Origin: Sipunculus nudus
Lineage: Eukaryota > Annelida > Sipuncula > Golfingiida > Sipunculidae
Reading direction: 5' to 3'
Length of the DNA: 64,000 nucleotides
Assembly (NCBI GenBank): GCA_026874595.1
Contig: CM049310.1
Coordinates: 82,051,056 to 82,115,055, forward strand
In this document: one piece after another, positions 6,249 to 57,810 of the stretch
Numbering within the stretch: the stretch's first letter is position 1
Layout of the letters: the number at the start of each line of letters is the position of its first letter
Notes under the pieces: model-generated
What the model was told of the DNA's origin: nothing
Database searches by the model: none
Seen by the model: the letters and a program-made list of their open reading frames with translations, nothing else
Position numbers and translations under genes: made by a program

Positions 6249-17698
<11,450 letters not shown>

Positions 17699-22829: not shown

Positions 22830-23320
22830 AGCGTTATATGAAAGTAACGCATTAATGTAAAGTAAACCTATTCTACGTGCGTATGTTGTGTGAATGGAGA
22901 ATTTCATCCAGGTCCAAGACTTTGCCCTGATTTGATTGGCTGGTACACGTGATATCATGGACTGAATTTTATAAACATTTTTAGATCTAGTAATGGGTGT
23001 TGTTTTTATTCTCTGCTGCAAATTTGGGACTGACAGTGGCAAAAATACTGTGCTCTTACTGAGATCTAGAATTTTTAGTAACAGGGGATTTCCCAGTGTG
23101 TGACGTCACGGCCGAGTTGACAGTGCTCATAGATGTGCCAATAGTTTTGGAACAAATCACAAAACCTCATGTTTTTAGTGGAAAAATAAATAGAAAAAAA
23201 TAAATTGTTTTTCCTCCATGAATTGGGCTCAATTTATGTAAAATCTATATGAATATTTTTTTCAAAACCAATTATGTTATATATGGTAATATAATGAGAT
23301 GTGGGATACGTTTGCTTGAC
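22830..23320 (+). repeat. Dispersed repeat family A, copy 1
   Basis: Landmarks are GATTTGATTGGCTGGTACACG, TTTGGGACTGACAGTGGC, AACAGGGGATTTCCCAGTGTG, AAACCTCATGTTTTTAGTGG and CCATGAATTGGGCTCAATTT. The same order is seen at 39285-39650, and reversed at 35450-35880 and 43840-44295. It is about 490 bp and has no coding content. Confidence 0.7.
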
Positions 23321-24017
23321 CATAATGTATATATAAATCAAGCAAGCGAGCAATCATAACAGAAAGTAGTATAAATGCATAATGGAAGTTCGCTTAAAGT
23401 TATCGGTAAAGCAATGTTTATAAAATTAATTATGAAACAGTTTACGCGCCTGTGAACATAAATCTTCTTTATTTCTGTCTTTCATCTTTTTTATATCATT
23501 TCATTTTAAAACTTTAATGTATACATAAATATGTACTTTGTCATCATAACCCCCACAAATGTATATAAAATGTATAAAAAATCACGCTGTTGTTGAAAAA
23601 CTGGTTTTACTCTAAAAGGGTGTTATTTTATTTGGTAAGATTTATAATCTATTCATCAAAACCATGCACAAAGGAGTTACCTTATCATTTTTTATAATGA
23701 AAATCTTCTAGACTAGCAAAAAATTTGTATATCAATGGTCAAATAACATACAGACGGGTATACTCCAAATACTGACTTAACAAAATTACAATATTTTCTC
23801 TGTGCTTATTTACATACGTGTCAAGTGGAAGTCAAATTCAACCAAATAATTCAAACGCCCTTGGTAAAGTGTATAATGACTGTGTCATTAATGTCGTATA
23901 AATATTTAATTTAACTGCATGAATACATATAATGTTAGTTATTCTGATGTATTTATATTATATAACCCATTCGATGCATCCATGTTTAATACAGGTTTAA
24001 TTTTTACAGGGAGCGTT

Positions 24018-42943: not shown

Positions 42944-43839
42944 GTCCCATTTTTTGTTGCCCGTGACAGGAAGTGCAGGTGAATCCCCGTCGCATTGCAT
43001 TATGGTTATCCAGTGTCAAAACGATTTTAGACGTCTTTTTTATCTTAAGACTTAAGGAAAAATTCTCGAATTTGAGTAACTAACGTATATTTAACATTAT
43101 TTCATATTTATTTTGTTCAAAACATATTCTGAAAGTTGTCAAATTACGATGTCTATCGAGCGACAAGTCCGACGGCCGCCATATTGAAAATTGATGATAT
43201 CGATCGTCCTTCATTATAGGCAACATAAACTTAGAAAATGTCTTAAGGAATGAGAAATATTCACATTTTAAGTACAAAATGATAATAATTTAGATAGATA
43301 CCAATCTTTTTTGGAAATTTGGTATGGTTTATTGTCACAAGGAGTTTACAATATAAATAATTATTTAATCTAAATAATGGAACAATCGTAAGTTTGCACA
43401 ACCAATTTTTATTTTAAAAAAAACACACATCGTGTGGCATGCGAACGAGTGTGAAGCTGTCGTTGCTTATGACCCTTACCTATAGCTGGGCTGCGGTAAA
43501 CATGGGCGATAATACGAGAACAACGCCGTTATTGAAAAAGCGGGCGATGGCTCACTGTTATTCATTAAAATGAACGTCATCCGTACACGGGCGTCATACT
43601 ATTTAGTTATCGACGGAATACTATGATACAAGGCTAATTATTAATATTTGTCAGAAGTGTGAAAACGGATGCAAACTTTAAGAATTCCGAAGTTATTCAA
43701 GGAAAGTAAGGTTTACACTTTCTAGTCGTCCGTAATGTTTCAGGACAGAAGTTGATGTAGAGATCAAGAGATCAATCGATTCCTCAACACGAGACCTCCT
43801 AACGACCTCCATACTAACGGTATTCTGTCAGGTCAATCA

Positions 43840-44295
43840 AACGTATTCCAAATCTCATTATATTATCATATAACATAAAATATGAAAAAAATATGAAAAA
43901 AATATTGATATAAATTTTACATAAAATGAGCCCAATTCCTGGAGGAAAAACATTTTTCTATCTATTTTTCCACTAAAAACATGAGGTTGTGTGATTTGTT
44001 CAAAAACTATGGGCACATCTATGAGCACTGTCAAATCGGAAGTGACGTTCCACACTGGGAAATCCCCTGTGACTAAAAATTCTAGATCTCAGTAAAAGCA
44101 CAGTATTTCCGCCTATATCAGTCCCAAATTTTCAGCAGAGAATAACAACAACATGCATTACTAGATCTGAGTTGTTGATAAAATTCAGTCCATGATGTCA
44201 GACGTGTACCAGCCAATCAAATCAGGACAAAGTCTGGTGAAATCTTGGTGAAATCCTCCCATCACACAACAAACGCACGTGGAATATGTTAACTT
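43840..44295 (-). repeat. Dispersed repeat family A, copy 4
   Basis: Reverse orientation. Landmarks are CATGAGGTTGTGTGATTTG, GAGCACTGTCAAATCGG, ACTGGGAAATCCCCTGTG and CAGCCAATCAAATCAGG. Confidence 0.7.
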
Positions 44296-44391
44296 AACCT
44301 GTCAGCTTTGGAAAAGCCGGCCTTACTCCCTCCAAGTCAAGTTATGAGGAGACAGTGACGTTACACGACGAATCTTACCACAGACAATATG

Positions 44392-45726: not shown

Positions 45727-46224
45727 TAATTAGATTGTAACATTGCAAACGAGGCTACAGTATAAATGACTGTTTAAGGGGATCTTATTTTAGTAAGTTT
45801 AATTTTCGCGATTATTTCTCCTGTCGCAAGTATGGCATATAATTGGAACCCTCGCGCACATAAAGCCAACTGCAGTATATTTTATCATACGCAGCGACAC
45901 AAGCTAAGAACACCCGTGACTCTGACATAGCTACACTTGAAAATATAATATTTATTGGCCATTTATGATCAGAGCCAAGGATCACGAGAGACGAAGGCAA
46001 TCAAGAATACGGGTCATGCTGGTGACTGCTTATCGCAGGTGACGTCACAGTCTAAGGGTCTGTTACAGTATTTCGTGAAGGAACTGATCCGAGTTCGATT
46101 ATGCTTTCGTGTCTTATATTTCAGGACTTTGCTAAATTAGCAGGTACATCTTAGCTCAGACAGGTATGTTAACTCTGACACCGTACTGCAGTAAATACAC
46201 ATACACATAATTATACAAACATGT

Positions 46225-46706
46225 TGTAACATTCTTGCCCTTTGACCTTGCCAGGGAGGGGCATCAACACTGATTGACAGTCGATATAGAGATGCCCCAG
46301 AGCCAATCACAGGCAGCTAAGGACTTTGCCCTCTGTCTCTCTGGGATAAAACCCCCTTGCCCTGGCGATTTTCTCCCTCTTGGATCATCGAGCAGTGGAG
46401 CCCTATGCCTGCCCTCTGTGGCAGGCAGAGGGTATATGGCTTCTTTTTCACCTTGGGGTTGGTTTTACGACAATGTCGGCTACCCAGGTGAAGAGCCACC
46501 CACAACCAAAGAGCAGTCCTTTTATCTAGTCTGGTAAGTACCTTTCTGTTCCATTTATAAGTTTAGATAATAATATGCAGTCCTGATTATTTGAAGGTTT
46601 AGGTTTTAAATTTTATTCCAGCAAAAGGTGTTATTTTATCTCTTTAAATTGTGTGAGTGCATGTTGCCCAAGCTCAATTTCCACCCAGAATAAATAAGCA
46701 GCTACA
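46225..46706 (+). repeat. 5' LTR
   Basis: 482 bp, TGTAACATTC...AAGCAGCTACA. It has a TATA-like GATAAAA at 46345-46351, a splice-donor consensus CTG|GTAAGT at 46533/46534 and AATAAA at 46689-46694. An 87-codon ORF (46274-46537) is repeated exactly in the other LTR. That identity is explained by LTR copying, so it is not evidence of a conserved protein. Confidence 0.93.
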
Positions 46707-46708
46707 TC

Positions 46709-46726
46709 TGGCGAGCGATGCTATTC
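46709..46726 (+). other. Candidate primer-binding site
   Basis: TGGCGAGCGATGCTATTC begins with the TGG expected to pair with a tRNA CCA end, two bases after the LTR. I could not assign the tRNA. Confidence 0.5.
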
Positions 46727-49259
46727 GGTTGTTACTAACAGCTAGGAGACGAATTCTGGTAAATAAATTGCTTATTTTGAGTTAATTCTGGGTTTTTTAG
46801 AATCAGATTATATATACTGAAGGGGCTTAGGTTGTAAAAATCTGCTAAATAAGTGATCTATTCAAATGAAAACATAGTAACAGCTTTAAAATGCCTGATT
46901 TTCATTTCTTAAGGAAATTCCTTTTATTTAGTGCACTCGTTTTGTGAACTAGAATAGAGGCTTTTTATAAATGTAGGCCCGTCTCTGTTTAAAGAACAAT
47001 GCGCATTATTTTATTTGGAAAGGTTAGTACTACTTTAGATTCCTATTGATAAACCATTATAGTAATTTGCCCTTCTTTGGCTATGAAGCGGTGTATACAT
47101 TATAAATCAGTGTATGCTTAAAAAAAATCAGATGCAAAATTCAAAACCATTGGTAGGTGTACAGTCATCCCACAATATTGAACCTTTATTTGTACAATTT
47201 ACAGTAAATACTACGGATATTGGGAATTTTCATTGTGGATAAACCAGTCATATTAGTTTTACATTCTTATAAAATAAGAGCCTTAATATCAATGTATTTC
47301 TAATTACTTCAGTCGTTAATTGAAATTAAATCCCACAGTGTTAAACTTGAATTGTGTGTTCCCACTAGGAGGTTATATATGAAAGAAAAAGAAAATAAAA
47401 AAAAAGTGTCCGATAATTATGTATATAAAATATGTGTAACTAAGATGTAAAAGCAAGAGAAATAAAACGTGCTATATGTACCATTAGGGGATGTGTAAAA
47501 ACTGTAACACGCATCTTCTTATTACATTGGGCATAAGTGTAATCCGCAAATATTTCATGCCCCCCATGCAAACAGCCAGGCAACTTGTGCCTGCAATCGT
47601 ATATATGTCATATTTTACTTATAATGAATGACCTTTTCCTTGCAAAATTAATCAGTTGATCAGATTTATGTATATAACAATTTTCAGGACTTGATCTAAA
47701 TTAGCTGGATTATACTGAAATAAGAGTAACAGCTCAACCTTTGATTATGCATAGCTGTCTCTTGAATAGAAGTAACATAGCTTCTCTTTTGTACATATGT
47801 ATAGATGCTGTAGAATGGAAAATATTTAAACTGTTATGTTATGCATGTACATATTGAATGAATACCACTGAACTGGTTATTGAGAATGTATTTTGATAGA
47901 AACATCAATTAAAGATCTTATTATTCCATCTGTATTGTCAGTTCAAAATATTTTATAAGCCTGATCTACATTCAAATGTTATTGTAAAACCCGATATTCA
48001 GTGATCTTTATGTTTAAACAAAATGGGTTTCTTGTGTAAAGAAATTTAGCCTACATGTTGGTTTTAAAACAAGGCTTTAAATCCTTAAATTACCGTACCT
48101 AGTGTTCTATTGTTTGGCGAATTTTAAATTACAGAAAGGGCACCACCTGGTAGATACATTTTAGTGTGTCATTCAAACAAACGGACCCGTTGGTCAAGTT
48201 TCATCTCCTGGTCACAAGTTATTGCATAATCCCATGCCCTGTAAACATCACCCTTGGGTTTCAAAGTTAGCTGTGTCTCACAGGGCCTGCTGGTAATCCC
48301 CTTATCTGACAGGTCAGATTAATAATCCAGGTGCATTCAGTGCCCCATATGGGGTTATATCATACTGAGTAGGATAAGTTGAGATTTGCTATCAACACTA
48401 AAACTCTGTCAAAGGAGCCCAGACAAGTTACCTAACACACCACAGTTATTTTGATACACCTGTTACCTGGTGTAATGTCATGTGAACCTTTGTCATGTGT
48501 CATGTACCTTATACCCATCCTGAAAATTTGTACCTTTAACATGCTTTCATGTGCTGGTAACCCACTTTAAATTATAATAATAATAAATAAATAAAACTAG
48601 AAAACTAATTTCACCAATAAAAATAACATTTAAATCAAATATTATTTAATAATTGGGCCTATCTTTCTGTTGGTCTCTCTTATATGTCCAACTGATATAA
48701 GCAGATACTTTTAAGGTGTTTAGCCCTTGCCTTTAGATAATCCTAATAACTTGTTACAATTAATAATGAATTATGATGTTAAAAATATAACAATAAAAAA
48801 AGATCAGTACTTAATAATCTAGATCAATCTTTTATATGAAAATTTAGTAATTCTCAGCGGATTACCTCTGAGGCATGCTCATATTTTATTTACACTTTGA
48901 CTAAATTCATTTGTTGATTTTGGATTTTGTATTTGCATTTAACTCTAACACAAATGTAGACTATTATCTCAAAGCAATTTAAACTGTTCATAAACATTTA
49001 ATTATTAATTACATTTGATTTATAAATTTCTTATTTTAAATTGAAACTGTTACAAACTTAGTTATTTCCAATGATAGTGAGTAACATTTATAACTCTACT
49101 TGATTAGACAAATTCAAAAGTAAATAGTATGATACTTATCCATTTAATTAAGGCAGTTTATTCTGCCTCATATACTGCTGGACTAGATATGCATGAGTAT
49201 TACTTTGAATTTCTCTGGTGAAATTAACTACCTATAGGCTAGATGTAACATGCCTGACA

Positions 49260-49710
49260 CACCTGGAAGGTTATTTATTGGTATCCTATTTGCCTAGATC
49301 TCAGTATCTGGCATAGTACCATTTATTCTGCCTCAACCTTGAGAGTTTTACTAGTCGCTTTTTAGGGTTCATATCCCGGCATAGTATGTGCTTTTCCTGG
49401 TTGAGTTTTTATTTAGTTTAGCATATAAGGGCATAAAATATATACCAGTTGCCTTGGGTGATACCCGGCATGGTTGTCCCTTCTTATGCAGTGTTTTGTT
49501 GCTGGCAAAGTTCCCAGTCGCTTTTTAAGGAGATGTTCTCCGGCATGGAAACAATTTTTGCCTAGTGATTTTGTGTCTGACATGGCTGCATGTCTGCCTT
49601 GTGGGTTTTGCGTATCGCCTAGAGAGTTCTCGATTGTGGCAGGGTACCACCTTTCACCTAGAGTATTTTGTATCTGGTATGGTGGCGCCACTTGCATACG
49701 ATTGTACCTG
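49260..49710 (+). repeat. Degenerate short tandem repeat inside the LTR element
   Basis: Loosely repeated words such as TGCCTAGnG, TTTTGTATCTGGCATGGT and AGTCGCTTTTTA recur roughly every 50-60 bp. No coding frame is preserved across them. Confidence 0.45.
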
Positions 49711-50652
49711 TCATCATATCTAAACCTAGCTATAACATCAACCAGCACAAATTTGTTTCTCTTAAGTATTGGGAGTAATTAAAATAAATTAGACCAGTGT
49801 GCATACTTAACACACCAGTTAAAATGACATCGCTCATTTAGAAGCTTAACATGTTTAATTAGGTTAATTTCAGTGAAATCCTATCAATAATATTAATCGG
49901 TGAACAACACACCAAAATACTAAATAAGTTGAATAAATACACAAATAAAATGAATAAACAAGCTGACTTCAAGTTAATGTCCACTCTATATTGCATTTGA
50001 GAGTAATGATATTTAAAATAAACAACAAACCATATATTCATTGCTGGATGGGTAGAACATTTTTTTGTCACTAAAATACATATTTCACTGAGGATTCGAG
50101 TGAAGAAATGTTAACGTTGTGGTATAAATCTGAGAACTTCAAACTAAGTTAGCTATTACACATATTATGAATCTACAGAGCTTAATAAAAGGAAATAAAT
50201 AATGATAATAATCAGAATGATGATATTGTTGATGATAAAATAATGATGTATTAAAATATAAACAGTAAACGGTTAATGCTAGAAGCAAATTAAAGAAGGA
50301 AATTCTCATTATTCAAATAAACTAATGAATAGGTAACTAACCCTGATATCTAATTTGAATGTTATATTCTTAGATAACTGTAGGGTAATAAATAACTTTG
50401 ATTTAACAAATTCTTGGGAAGCACTGCTTACCATTTTCCCTCAATTAAAGTCATGGATAAGGGTTGTATATTACAGGTAGACTTTCTTTAACTGATTAAA
50501 ACTACCGTGCAATCGTTGAATTATCTAGTAATATTATTTGATGTATTACTATGCTTAAGTTCTCATGTGATAATTTAAGGAGATCTTACATTTAGCGAGA
50601 AATCCCGCTGTTACTTGATTATTATTACTTTGTCAGTTGTAGTTCGTATTTT

Positions 50653-51160
50653 AGCCCAGTGAGAGGGCATATTTCGGCCGAGCGGGGCTTAAAAACCGTC
50701 TATAATTTGAGGCCAAACAGGGCACATAATAAATACTGTTTATGAAAAGCTTACCTGAGGGTAACGCATATACGTCTAAACACTGATCAGATGATGATAC
50801 AGTGTGCGAGTGAATCTCGCTAGATAAGTCGACCAATGGTCTTATTATTTCACCCAAGTGAGAGGGCATGTTTCGGCCGTGCGGGGCCTAAAATACCGTC
50901 TGTATTTTGAGGCCAAACAGGGCACAGAATAAATACTGTTTATAAAAAGCTAACCCGAAGTTAAAGCATATACGTCTAAACACTGATCAGATGATGATAC
51001 AGTGTGTGAGCGAATCTCGCTGTATTAGTAGACCAGTGGTCGAAATATTAATTAGCCCAATGAGGGGGCATGTTTCAGCCAGACGGGGCTCTAAATAAAT
51101 TCCGTTACAGTCGTGAGGCCTGACAGGGCACAAAGAAAATACTGTCCATTAAATCTGATA
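50653..51160 (+). repeat. Tandem repeat of about 200 bp, 2.5 copies, inside the LTR element
   Basis: Copies start near 50653, 50852 and 51054 with AGCCCAGTGAGAGGGCAT-like words. They continue with GAGGCCAAACAGGGCACA, TATACGTCTAAACACTGATC and CGAATCTCGCT. The third copy is shorter and more diverged. Confidence 0.85.
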
Positions 51161-51523
51161 CGTTGGTTACTTTTGCCAATCTTGTATCTTCGGGCTATAC
51201 AACTTTTGGGGACTATATAGTTACCCCTAGTTTTATATACTCCATATAAAACGGAGAAATGAGCCCAGATTATGCCTATTGGAGGGTCCCTTTATGTAAA
51301 CGCTGTCAATTTTATTTAATAATGTATAGTTGAAAACTTAGATCAAGTGTTTAACTGTTTTAATGTTTTACCAAGGGGCCGCTTATCATCATTCTTTATG
51401 TTTGATTATGTATAATTTTTTTGTGAGAGCTATTTTTTTAAATAGTCATGTCTAGGTTATTGCCGCAAAAATTATACTTGTGTCATAAGGACAGATACTG
51501 CCGCTCTTGAATTTTATTTTCAG

Positions 51524-51848
51524 AGGCTCTATTTTCGCATGAACCAGTTGTCAGCCATCAGTGCAGCCTTCCCAGTGTGGTCCGGCTCAGCTCTTCTGCT
51601 ACAGCAAGCTTCAACCTGAGCCAACATTCCACTACAGCCAGATAATGGACGCTTTTACAAATGCAGCACTCCTTGAGAAAATAATGAGGCCTGTGGCGCC
51701 ACCATCTGGACTGATATTTTATTAAATCCTTATGGCCACCAGGCTCACTAATGGACTGTAACATCTAATAACTTATTGTACCTGGTGCATGTTGAATGTC
51801 AGTGATATATCTTTGAATATTTTATATTGTTTTTGAATGTTCAATAAA
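51524..51848 (+). ncRNA. Possible 3' exon of a spliced LTR-driven transcript
   Basis: A strong acceptor (TTGAATTTTATTTTCAG, ending at 51523) is followed by a GC-richer segment and then AATAAA at 51843-51848. Together with the GTAAGT donor in the 5' LTR it could give a spliced non-coding RNA with an intron of about 5 kb. The frame carried over from the LTR ORF hits a stop at once. This is inferred from signals only. Confidence 0.3.
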
Positions 51849-52144
51849 AATTACACAATCCCTGAACCTTCAAAACAACTATCAGACTGCAAAATCCCTA
51901 ATCACTGGAGGTACTGTGTGGGGAGAGAACACTCCCTACCCGCTGTTGTAGCATTGGATAAACCTACCTCCCCCCTCCCAACATGGGAGTTAGGGGTTGG
52001 GTAGCCGGCTAACAGCCTATACACAGCCTGCCAGCCATGTTTTAGTCATATAAGAAACAAACAAAAACAAATTCTCCTCTCCAAAGGCTAGATATCATGA
52101 CTGCTATCGCAAAATTTTCCACTGTAGTGAAAAATTTTTCCTAT

Positions 52145-52156
52145 AGGGGGGAAGGA
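52145..52156 (+). other. Polypurine tract
   Basis: AGGGGGGAAGGA directly precedes the 3' LTR, the usual site for priming plus-strand DNA. Confidence 0.85.
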
Positions 52157-52638
52157 TGTAACATTCTTGCCCTTTGACCTTGCCAGGGAGGGGCATCAAC
52201 ACTGATTGACAGTCGATATAGAGATGCCCCAGAGCCAATCACAGGCAGCTAAGGACTTTGCCCTCTGTCTCTCTGGGATAAAACCCCCTTGCCCTGGCGA
52301 TTTTCTCCCTCTTGGATCATCGAGCAGTGGAGCCCTATGCCTGCCCTCTGTGGCAGGCAGAGGGTATATGGCTTCTTTTTCACCTTGGGGTTGGTTTTAC
52401 GACAATGTCGGCTACCCAGGTGAAGAGCCACCCACAACCAAAGAGCAGTCCTTTTATCTAGTCTGGTAAGTATCTTTCTGTTTCATTTATAAGTTTAGAT
52501 AATAATATGCAGTCCTGATTATTTGAAGGTTTAGGTTTTAAATTTTATTCCAGCAAAAGGTGTTATTTTATCTCTTTAAATTGTGTGAGTGCATGTTGCC
52601 CAAGCTCAATTTCCACCCAGAATAAATAAGCAGCTACA
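52157..52638 (+). repeat. 3' LTR
   Basis: 482 bp, matching the 5' LTR except for two transitions just after the GTAAGT motif (near 52472 and 52482). Confidence 0.93.
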
Positions 52639-53066
52639 ATGTGGCGCCTCATACACAGTGAAAGGTAATCAACTTAAGGCATGTACACGTGAATTCCTTG
52701 GCAAGTGTTAGAGGGTGTGGGTTAGAGGTCATGTGCACAAAATACATATAATTGTTTCATATTATACGTGATTACGTGCTACTGAACATGGTTAATTCAA
52801 AACAATAAACTGATCTAGGAATACTAGAACCATGGATATTCAATTAGATACAATAAATCGTATTTCCATGTTAGAATGAAGCCGTTTATCAAATCATTGA
52901 TAATTCCTCTCTAATGATGAGTTGTACAGGAAAGTTAGTTTAAAATTCATGTGTACTTATATGGTGCCAAAATGATCTGTCATTTTAACAAAGAATGCAC
53001 GTTTCTTTTTAATGAGATTAATTTAAAACGTAGTTTTAATATTAATAATCTGCGATGATGATAATA

Positions 53067-56436: not shown

Positions 56437-56500
56437 CACACATATATATATATATATGTATTCTCAAGGTTTATAGATTTTATGGTCCGTTCGTATACAT
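55330..56500. other. Intergenic, no gene seen
   Basis: AT-rich sequence. A fragment ending GGATTCGCCACTGC (about 55676-55718) looks like a hAT terminus. (AC)n lies at 56246-56286 and (TA)n at 56394-56432. Confidence 0.5.
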
Positions 56501-56506
56501 TTACAG

Positions 56507-56757
56507 AGATCCGTTGGGCCTAACACTGTGACGTCACGCGCCGAGGAACGCGATCGATGGGCAATGTACAACAATGCGTATATTCAATCGTACGGTCTAC
56601 AGAACCAGGGTAGTAGCACCGGGATTTCGAACATGGATAGAACAGTCGGCCCATCGGCACCACCGTATGAACCACCAGGGATTTACCCTTCGCAACAAGC
56701 AGGATTTCCCCATTCTGACAGCACAAGTATTCCACCTCCTCCAAGTTATGAGCTCCG
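56507..56757 (+). CDS. Exon-like segment with PPxY motifs, partial
   Basis: It follows a possible acceptor (CATTTACAG) and stays open for about 83 codons before merging into the 27-bp minisatellite. The peptide is Tyr/Pro/Gln/Ser-rich, with QSYGLQNQGSSTG, SAPPYEPPGIYPSQQ and IPPPPSYE. Two PPxY motifs (PPYE, PSYE preceded by prolines) are the type bound by WW domains, and are common in cytoplasmic tails of small membrane proteins. I cannot name the family. No upstream exon was found, and the original 3' end seems replaced by repeat sequence. It may be a disrupted gene or a captured fragment. Confidence 0.45.
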
Positions 56758-57655
56758 GTTTCAAGTCCAAGTCCGAGTCCTTGAAGTAAGAGTCCAAGTC
56801 CGAGTCCTTGCAGTTAGAGGCCAAGTCCGAGTCCTTGAAGTTAGAGTCCAAGTCCGAGTTCTTGAAGATAGAGTCCAAGTCCGAGTCCTTGAAGTTAGGG
56901 TCCAAGTCCAAGTTCTTGAAGTTAAAGTCCAAGTCCGAGTCCTTGAAGTTACAGTTCAAGTCTTAATCCTTGAAGTTAGAGTCCAAGTCCGAGTCCTTGA
57001 AGTAAGTGTCCAAGTCCGAGTCCTTGAAGTTAGAGTCCAAGTCCGAGACATTGAAGTTAGAGTCCAAGTCCTAGTCATTGAAGTTAGAGTCCAAGTCCGA
57101 GTCTTTGAAGTTAGAGTCCAAGTCCGAGACCTTGAAGTAAGAGTCCAAGTCCGAGTCCTTGAAGTAAGAGTCCAAGTCCGAGTCCTTGAAGTTAGAGTCC
57201 AAGTCCGAGTCCTTGAAGTTAGAGTCCAAGTCCGAGTCCTGGAAGTAAGAGTCCAAGTCCGAGTCCTTGAAGTAAGAGTCCAAGTCCGAGTCTTTGAAGT
57301 TAGAGTCCAAGTCCTAGTCCTTGAAGTTAGAGTCCATGTCCGAGCCCTTGAAGTTAGTGTCCAAGTCCGAGTCCTTGAAGTAAGAGTCCAAGTCCGAGTC
57401 ATTGAAGTTAGAGTCCAAGTCCTAGTCCTTGAAGTTAGAGTCCAAGTCCGAGTCTTTGAAGTAAGAGTCCGAGTCCTTGAAGTTAGAGTCCAAGTCCGAG
57501 TCCTTGAAGTAAGAGTCAAAGTCCGAGTCCTTGAAGTTAGAGTCCGAGTCCGAGCCCTTGAAGTTAGTGTCCGAGTCCTTGAAGTTAGAGTCCAAGTCCG
57601 AGTCCTTGAAGTTAGAGTCCAAGTCCAACTTCTTCGAGTCCGAGTCCGAGTCCAA
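56757..57655. repeat. 27-bp minisatellite, about 33 units
   Basis: The unit is AGAGTCCAAGTCCGAGTC plus CTTGAAGTT, with some 18-bp units. Because it is a multiple of three and lacks stops in several frames, it keeps ORFs open on both strands (RVQVRVLEV on +, DSDLDSNFK and TRTWTLTSR on -). These ORFs are by-products. The same GAGTCC words occur near the ends of the hAT-like element at 34385-35441. Confidence 0.92.
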
Positions 57656-57810
57656 TGCATATCTCTTTGTTTAAAGAAACTTTAGATTGAAATTGTATTT
57701 TTAGATGTTCGCACGTGTATATTCGTCTTTACAGTATGTGATAGAGTTTTGTGTCCATGTCTGTGTCCGAAACCCTGAAAAATGGACTCGAGTCCTACAA
57801 CATTGCTTAC
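57656..57810. repeat. Right part of a GAGTCC-family hAT-like element
   Basis: It has TGTTTAAAGAAACTTTAGAT, TTCGCACGTGTATATTCGTC and GGACTCGAGTCCTACAACAT. These match the interior and right end of 34385-35441, without that copy's left end. Confidence 0.6.

Follow-up and report, generated by a model that had tools for sequence, protein, structure and literature searches.

Element and genomic family

The window analysed here, a stretch of 64,000 nucleotides of the Sipunculus nudus genome (C5:82051056-82115055; 1.43 Gb in 153 contigs), carries a long terminal repeat (LTR) retrotransposon with a total length of 6,414 bp, of which 5,450 bp lie between the two 482-bp LTRs (Table 1). In pairwise comparison the LTRs differ by two mismatches and zero gaps; at both sites (46541/52473 and 46551/52483) the 5' LTR has C and the 3' LTR has T. 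The LTRs begin with TGTAAC and end with GCTACA, TCTGGCGAGC lies directly 3' of the 5' LTR, the purine run AGGGGGGAAGGA directly adjoins the 3' LTR, and ATGT is present at either edge of the element. In other words, direct TG..CA repeats, a 4-bp target-site duplication, a primer site and a polypurine tract are all in place, so that our comparison recovers the 482-bp LTRs with two differences, the polypurine tract and the duplication described in an earlier note that had been made from the sequence alone. This structure is far beyond chance, and the same architecture recurs in 15 copies elsewhere in the genome. When the element was compared with the rest of the window (BLAST, E 1e-3), its sole self-matches were the LTRs and a 200-bp tandem unit. 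The core TGGCGAGC of the primer site is presumably matched for about 8 bases by a tRNA-Arg 3' end. A tRNA gene search found no tRNA genes in the window, and Rfam gave no RNA family in the window at the gathering score and none around the element at E up to 5. Likewise, no viral contig with this LTR start was found in a search that may omit records near the window's genome.

Table 1. Features of the LTR element in the window, with their state in the 16 copies compared
Feature	Positions	Strand	Remark
Target-site duplication ATGT, left copy	46221..46224		4-bp duplication in 15/16 copies compared
5' LTR, 482 bp, TG...CA	46225..46706	+	94.6-96.1% to LTRs of other fetched copies
TATA-like GATAAAA in LTR, putative promoter	46345..46351	+	16/16 copies; predicted function
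Putative intron-like stretch in LTR, GTAAGT...TTCCAG	46534..46621	+	Donor GTAAGT 15/16, acceptor CAG 16/16
Putative polyadenylation signal AATAAA close to LTR end	46689..46694	+	16/16 copies; predicted function
Primer-binding site TCTGGCGAGC, core TGGCGAGC	46707..46716	+	Same in 16/16 copies, bases behind vary
Interior, 5,450 bp, retroelement coding sequence not detected	46707..52156	+	Near-full length common to 15 further copies
Most variable interior part, mean column identity 85-90%	48025..48474	+	BLAST match interrupted in L009, L011
200-bp tandem unit, 2.2 copies here	50650..51095	+	Core-bearing units counted: 0 to 4 per family copy
Polypurine tract ATAGGGGGGAAGGA adjoining 3' LTR	52143..52156	+	14 bases identical in 14/16 copies; 2 with GGAAGAA
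3' LTR, 482 bp	52157..52638	+	2 mismatches to 5' LTR (LTR comparison)
Target-site duplication ATGT, right copy	52639..52642		Flank comparison

The element belongs to a genomic family of about 100 copies, which the earlier note does not mention. For each query, the best 40 candidates of the genome searches were scored. The earlier note had proposed looking for LTR homologues; there were 510 first-look candidates, and the best 40 match 480-482 of the 482 bases at 95-100% (rounded), placing the element in a multi-copy family. With the first 2 kb of the interior as the query there were 212 candidates, the best 40 of which gave 46 matches at 89-100%. A 19-mer spanning the LTR end and the primer site occurs, with at most one mismatch, at 118 places in the genome, whereas the same pattern read backward occurs at none. 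Two of the best 40 LTRs are those of the window, 30 form 15 same-strand pairs within 7 kb, and eight are single in the list. Four of these eight come from further full-length copies (L030, L031, L033 and L038), two from deletion derivatives and the last two are solo LTRs. Of the four full-length copies, L031 and L033 match the 5' LTR incompletely, and L030 and L038 show a single mismatch between their LTRs and duplications of 5 bp and 4 bp, respectively. Duplications of 4 bp are also found at both solo LTRs and at L032, a derivative in which 1.3 kb of interior is followed by a 32-bp LTR remnant; in L029 the family sequence is lost at about the same point. Both L029 and L032 are short, consisting of a single LTR and the initial 1.3 kb of interior sequence, and lie beside satellite-like repeats. 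Since their interior match stops early, they were considered as longer autonomous copies, a reading rejected on their deletion-type endings.

Full comparison was made for the window copy and the 15 LTR pairs fetched from the best 40 matches. LTR-LTR mismatches number zero in eight copies (one of them with two gap columns), one in three, two in four including the window copy, and seven in one, 18 in total. The interiors of the 15 other copies, 5,024-5,857 bp long, are homologous to that of the window element over nearly the whole length, at about 91-97%, with local gaps at about interior positions 1374-1781 (L009, L011) and 405-863 (L022) and around the tandem unit. Between any two of the 16 copies, identity averages 95.5% (range 91.1-99.1%). 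Although TCTGGCGAGC is identical in all of them, the bases just behind it differ. The divergence of the window LTRs is 2/482, or 0.41%, and the mean over the 16 pairs is 0.23%. At an assumed rate of 2-5e-9 substitutions per site and year, which may not be that of the host, the age of the window copy would be roughly 0.4-1 million years. Copies lacking LTR substitutions, of which there are eight, probably inserted later, and L022 did so earlier. The LTRs, 99.6% identical, thus bear out the youth that the earlier note had ascribed to the element.

The 4-bp duplication is perfect in 15 of the 16 copies, the exception being L022, which is also the most diverged. The 15 sites share a palindromic preference, ATY[AYRT]RAT, and the correlation of the site profile with its own reverse complement is 0.85, a value that none of 5000 shuffles reaches. 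Individual sites agree with this consensus at 5 to 9 of its 10 positions; it was derived from the same 15 sites on which it is scored. Retroviral-type integrases leave such symmetry around a short staggered cut. The palindromic 4-bp site therefore appears to point to insertion by an integrase.

Coding capacity of the interior

The earlier note had found no retroelement protein in the 5.45-kb interior and had named degraded gag-pol, if detected by a profile search, as the result that would speak against it. The profile search, made on pieces, gave no such result. The 109 stop-to-stop pieces of the window element of at least 28 amino acids in all six frames were scanned one by one; Pfam gave nothing retroviral (best E 0.025, an unrelated family), and PHROGs gave a single match at E 0.1. 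In the 19 other full-length copies, 88 of the 184 pieces of at least 62 amino acids outside the LTRs were likewise scanned with Pfam and had no retroelement domain (best E 0.01, unrelated). The same procedure, applied to 78 of the 300 pieces of at least 55 amino acids from the rest of the window, finds C2H2 zinc-finger pieces at 1.7e-10; this shows that real exons in the window can be detected and is not a control for retroviral domains. The longest interior stop-to-stop frame, 121 amino acids, is antisense, and 18 of 200 equal-length first-order Markov sequences reach this length. In the alignment of the 16 copies none of 13 frames is open in every copy, and the segregating sites along the element have no clear three-base periodicity. 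Decayed gag-pol is supported neither by the profile search on pieces nor by shared frames. Because the copies share no open frame and contain no retroelement domain, their common ancestor was very probably already without gag-pol.

Several longer frames were considered as coding and rejected. The 142-amino-acid frame of L014 matches nothing among solved structures, and its only Pfam match is weak (E 0.015) and fails the family cut-off. Two frames, of 172 and 187 amino acids (L083, L084), are antisense and lie at one local duplication; at the other 54 sampled places the longest frame does not exceed 108 amino acids. It is worth pointing out that at C11:57080501-57090500 (L095) two tandem family copies have an identical left flank and represent a local duplication. 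Where compared, the two interiors are 98.5-98.7% alike and contain a long antisense frame.

Partner search and mosaic copies

An autonomous partner recognisable by a common LTR, primer site and polypurine tract, as envisaged in the earlier note, was not found among the 98 assigned places of the 100 that were listed out of the 118 LTR-end/primer-site places. Family interior follows at 92 of the 98, and six are deleted or rearranged. By position, 42 places are copies with known family interior. The 56 further places were read for 600-1300 bp past the primer site: 50 match the family (four of them over no more than 154 bp) and six do not. At the latter six, where the reading covered 600 bp starting at the primer site and another 2 kb beyond, family sequence extends for 20 to about 560 bp and then stops or is rearranged; judged by frame lengths only, the longest frame is 147 amino acids in the first stretch and 116 beyond. 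The remaining two listed places are the upstream members of an array on C2, where three same-strand LTR-end/primer-site junctions (48848388, 48848828 and 48849268) are spaced 440 bp apart, forming a small tandem array that includes the LTR end and the leader.

Twenty copies, namely the 16 together with L030, L031, L033 and L038, were read to the far end, and at most other places the stretch read would not set apart a coding relative whose first 1.3-2 kb of interior are those of the family. Patterns with a variant base also led back to the family. With another base before the TACA end of the LTR there is one place, which is the L010 copy (the backward control also gives one), and with another base behind TGTAACA there is again a single place, whose position is that of the 3' end of the family copy at C3:56942089 (no place in the control). 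Within the limits of what was read, any partner having these same LTRs is rare or absent. A partner with different LTRs, standing to the family as MLV does to VL30, is likely by analogy.

The copies are mosaics. Between the window copy and L009 there are differences at 11 of 1,996 sites in 50225-52224 and at 96 of 1,740 in 46225-47974, and far more in the variable block when counted in 250-bp steps. The nearest neighbour among the copies changes along the element. Pair distances correlate at 0.95 between the two LTRs, as opposed to -0.06 to 0.34 between the LTR and interior segments. For 71 of the 120 pairs, no permutation out of 500 gives a run of identical polymorphic sites as long as the longest one observed. 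Four-gamete conflicts involve 12% of site pairs less than 500 bp apart and 29-68% of those further apart, the increase not being smooth. Such mosaics point to template switching between two co-packaged RNAs, which would be their simplest cause.

Elsewhere in the window, three C2H2 zinc-finger motifs lie in separate exon-like pieces at 15313-17434 (+); we take these pieces to resemble odd-skipped/OSR factors, in keeping with an animal host. A 402-amino-acid open frame at 56477-57685 (+) is built for the most part of a VQVRVLEV-like unit repeated in a long tandem array, with a 241-amino-acid frame on the other strand. A separate repeat family is represented by an inverted pair of about 470 bp at 22857-23321 and 43831-44298, 84% identical, with weaker relatives at 35.4-35.8 kb.

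Explanations and known systems

The window element is very likely a recent insertion of a multi-copy non-autonomous LTR retrotransposon family of the large retrotransposon derivative (LARD) or ETn type, supplied in trans. A common non-coding interior, without open frame or retroelement domain across the copies, identifies a non-autonomous family and not a single decayed copy. Recent mobilisation in trans, as the earlier note had proposed, follows as an inference from the lack of detected coding capacity together with the young LTRs. In such a cycle, the LTR promoter would make a non-coding RNA of roughly 6 kb, which would enter virus-like particles built by a separate autonomous LTR element. 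Reverse transcription would be primed at TGGCGAGC and would often switch template from one co-packaged family RNA to another, and cDNA synthesis would be finished from the polypurine tract. Integration would then proceed with a 4-bp stagger at the weakly palindromic ATY[AYRT]RAT.

Several points weigh against this explanation. The proposed cycle is read from DNA sequence, and the stretches read at the 98 assigned places contain no recognisable coding sequence. The selection of the 15 other copies is biased towards young pairs, as only elements with both LTRs among the 40 most similar to the window LTR were included. Mosaics could also arise by gene conversion between genomic copies, and variability that differs from one part of the element to another can make the identical runs of the permutation test longer. 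Moreover, the profile scan covers pieces of at least 28 amino acids and has little power if decay is very old. Each of three short frames is open in 14 of the 16 copies, and so are the first 83-84 amino acids of the antisense frame at 49416-49778 (-), whose segregating sites are distributed over the codon positions as 11, 12 and 20. Neither these short frames nor the antisense frame has a protein family match (Pfam on pieces), and a small gene unrelated to gag-pol is unlikely in the family. This antisense frame sits in a better conserved part of the interior (97-98%).

Other explanations bear on the origin of the interior or of the copies. If the interior had once been gag-pol and had mutated past recognition, the window element would be a decayed autonomous one. 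A profile search on short stop-to-stop pieces indeed has limited power for old decay, but with LTRs 99.6% identical the decay cannot postdate the insertion. The same interior, with no frame open throughout, is also present in the 15 other copies, eight of the 16 lack any LTR substitution, and the 109 and 88 pieces yielded no retroviral domain. Any former coding sequence was thus lost before these copies arose, and this explanation, already contradicted for the window copy, is highly improbable. More plausible, though still doubtful, is that LTRs, leader and polypurine region derive from an autonomous element in which host sequence replaced gag-pol, for which BARE-2-, Dasheng- or ETn-like origins are precedents. 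The absence of a coding trace in the interior (Pfam on pieces) and the splice-like sites in the LTR and interior favour such a swap, and it can be combined with supply in trans as the origin of the family. Against it, no LTR-free source of the interior was recognised with the first 2 kb as the query (the best 40 of 212 candidates, LTR adjacency being considered for part of the matches), and 38 LTR-end/primer-site places coincide with the starts of interior matches. Finally, the copies might have spread by segmental or satellite-like duplication instead of retrotransposition, as the pair at C11:57.08 Mb with its identical left flank and the 440-bp-spaced array at C2:48.848 Mb would suggest locally. 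Differing flanks and perfect 4-bp duplications already refute this for 15 of the 16 copies, and the symmetric integration site and the two solo LTRs with 4-bp duplications also argue against it, so that for the family this is the least credible of the explanations considered.

Based on the non-autonomous family supplied in trans, it is tempting to speculate further that it forms a gene-free 'sexual' population. In that case no partner with the same LTRs would be left, several diverged lineages would hijack the particles of an unrelated element, a non-coding RNA of about 5.4 kb would be selected for packaging, and segments would be exchanged through template switching in almost every cycle. We regard this extension as somewhat less likely even than the interior swap. 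The mosaic copies and the missing partner are the most interesting features of the family. About 100 copies, LTRs that are in many cases near-identical, and recombination visible between its lineages make the family suited to asking which stretches of a retroelement RNA copying in trans requires and why such a parasite retains several kb of non-coding sequence.

As for known systems, LARDs were first defined in plants. The window element is like them in having a large non-coding interior between LTRs, a primer site and a polypurine tract, and differs in its animal host and in the lack of a partner in the stretches read. A several-kb interior without gag-pol was found in the members examined (by scanned pieces, and by frames in 16 copies), as were multiple young copies with a common non-coding interior. 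By contrast, a total of under about 1 kb, as in TRIMs, does not describe an element of 6,414 bp, and the 4-bp duplication alone does not decide among Ty3/gypsy, BEL, copia and ERV. The mouse ETn is similar in size to the window element. The likenesses below are by description, not by sequence, and follow excerpts of the cited sources. There, ETn has LTRs and 'no coding capacity' and is moved with MusD proteins, whereas VL30 is co-packaged with MLV and has a 5.5-kb insertion in agouti (PMC6466679). The window family resembles both in its LTRs, its non-coding or non-autonomous nature, its probable reliance on partner proteins and its young copies, those of ETn and VL30 being young and polymorphic (PMC6466679). 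However, ETn has a known partner in MusD, and for the window family none was found in the stretches read.

The closest invertebrate parallel in these excerpts is provided by the 38 non-coding LTR families (cqUNK) of Culex quinquefasciatus, for which internal tandem repeats are described and a master copy is not recognisable (PMC3286476). They share with the window family LTRs, primer site, target duplication, internal tandem repeats and the lack of coding sequence and of a master, but live in another host and, in the few table rows available, have duplications of 5 bp and not 4 bp. In two bumblebee genomes, 13.8 and 18.8 Mb are classed as LARD or TRIM (PMC4414376). The biv-TRIM of bivalves is another non-coding animal LTR element for which the excerpt gives no partner and an unclear primer site (PMC6934838); it differs from the 6.4-kb window element, with its clear primer-site core, in that TRIMs are below 1 kb. 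Recombinant copies are also known from Onsen of Arabidopsis, where recombination within the family during bursts produces them (PMC5668417), although Onsen is a plant family and the window family is non-coding in all copies examined. The earlier note had argued that large non-coding LTR elements are best known from plants, so that an animal case would be worth describing. The premise is fair, but animal cases are documented in mouse (ETn, VL30), mosquito and bumblebee, and consequently the argument holds only in part. By analogy, the window family appears to work like ETn and VL30 and to be built like a LARD; it is a good new example of the gene-free LTR elements known in animals, not a new kind.

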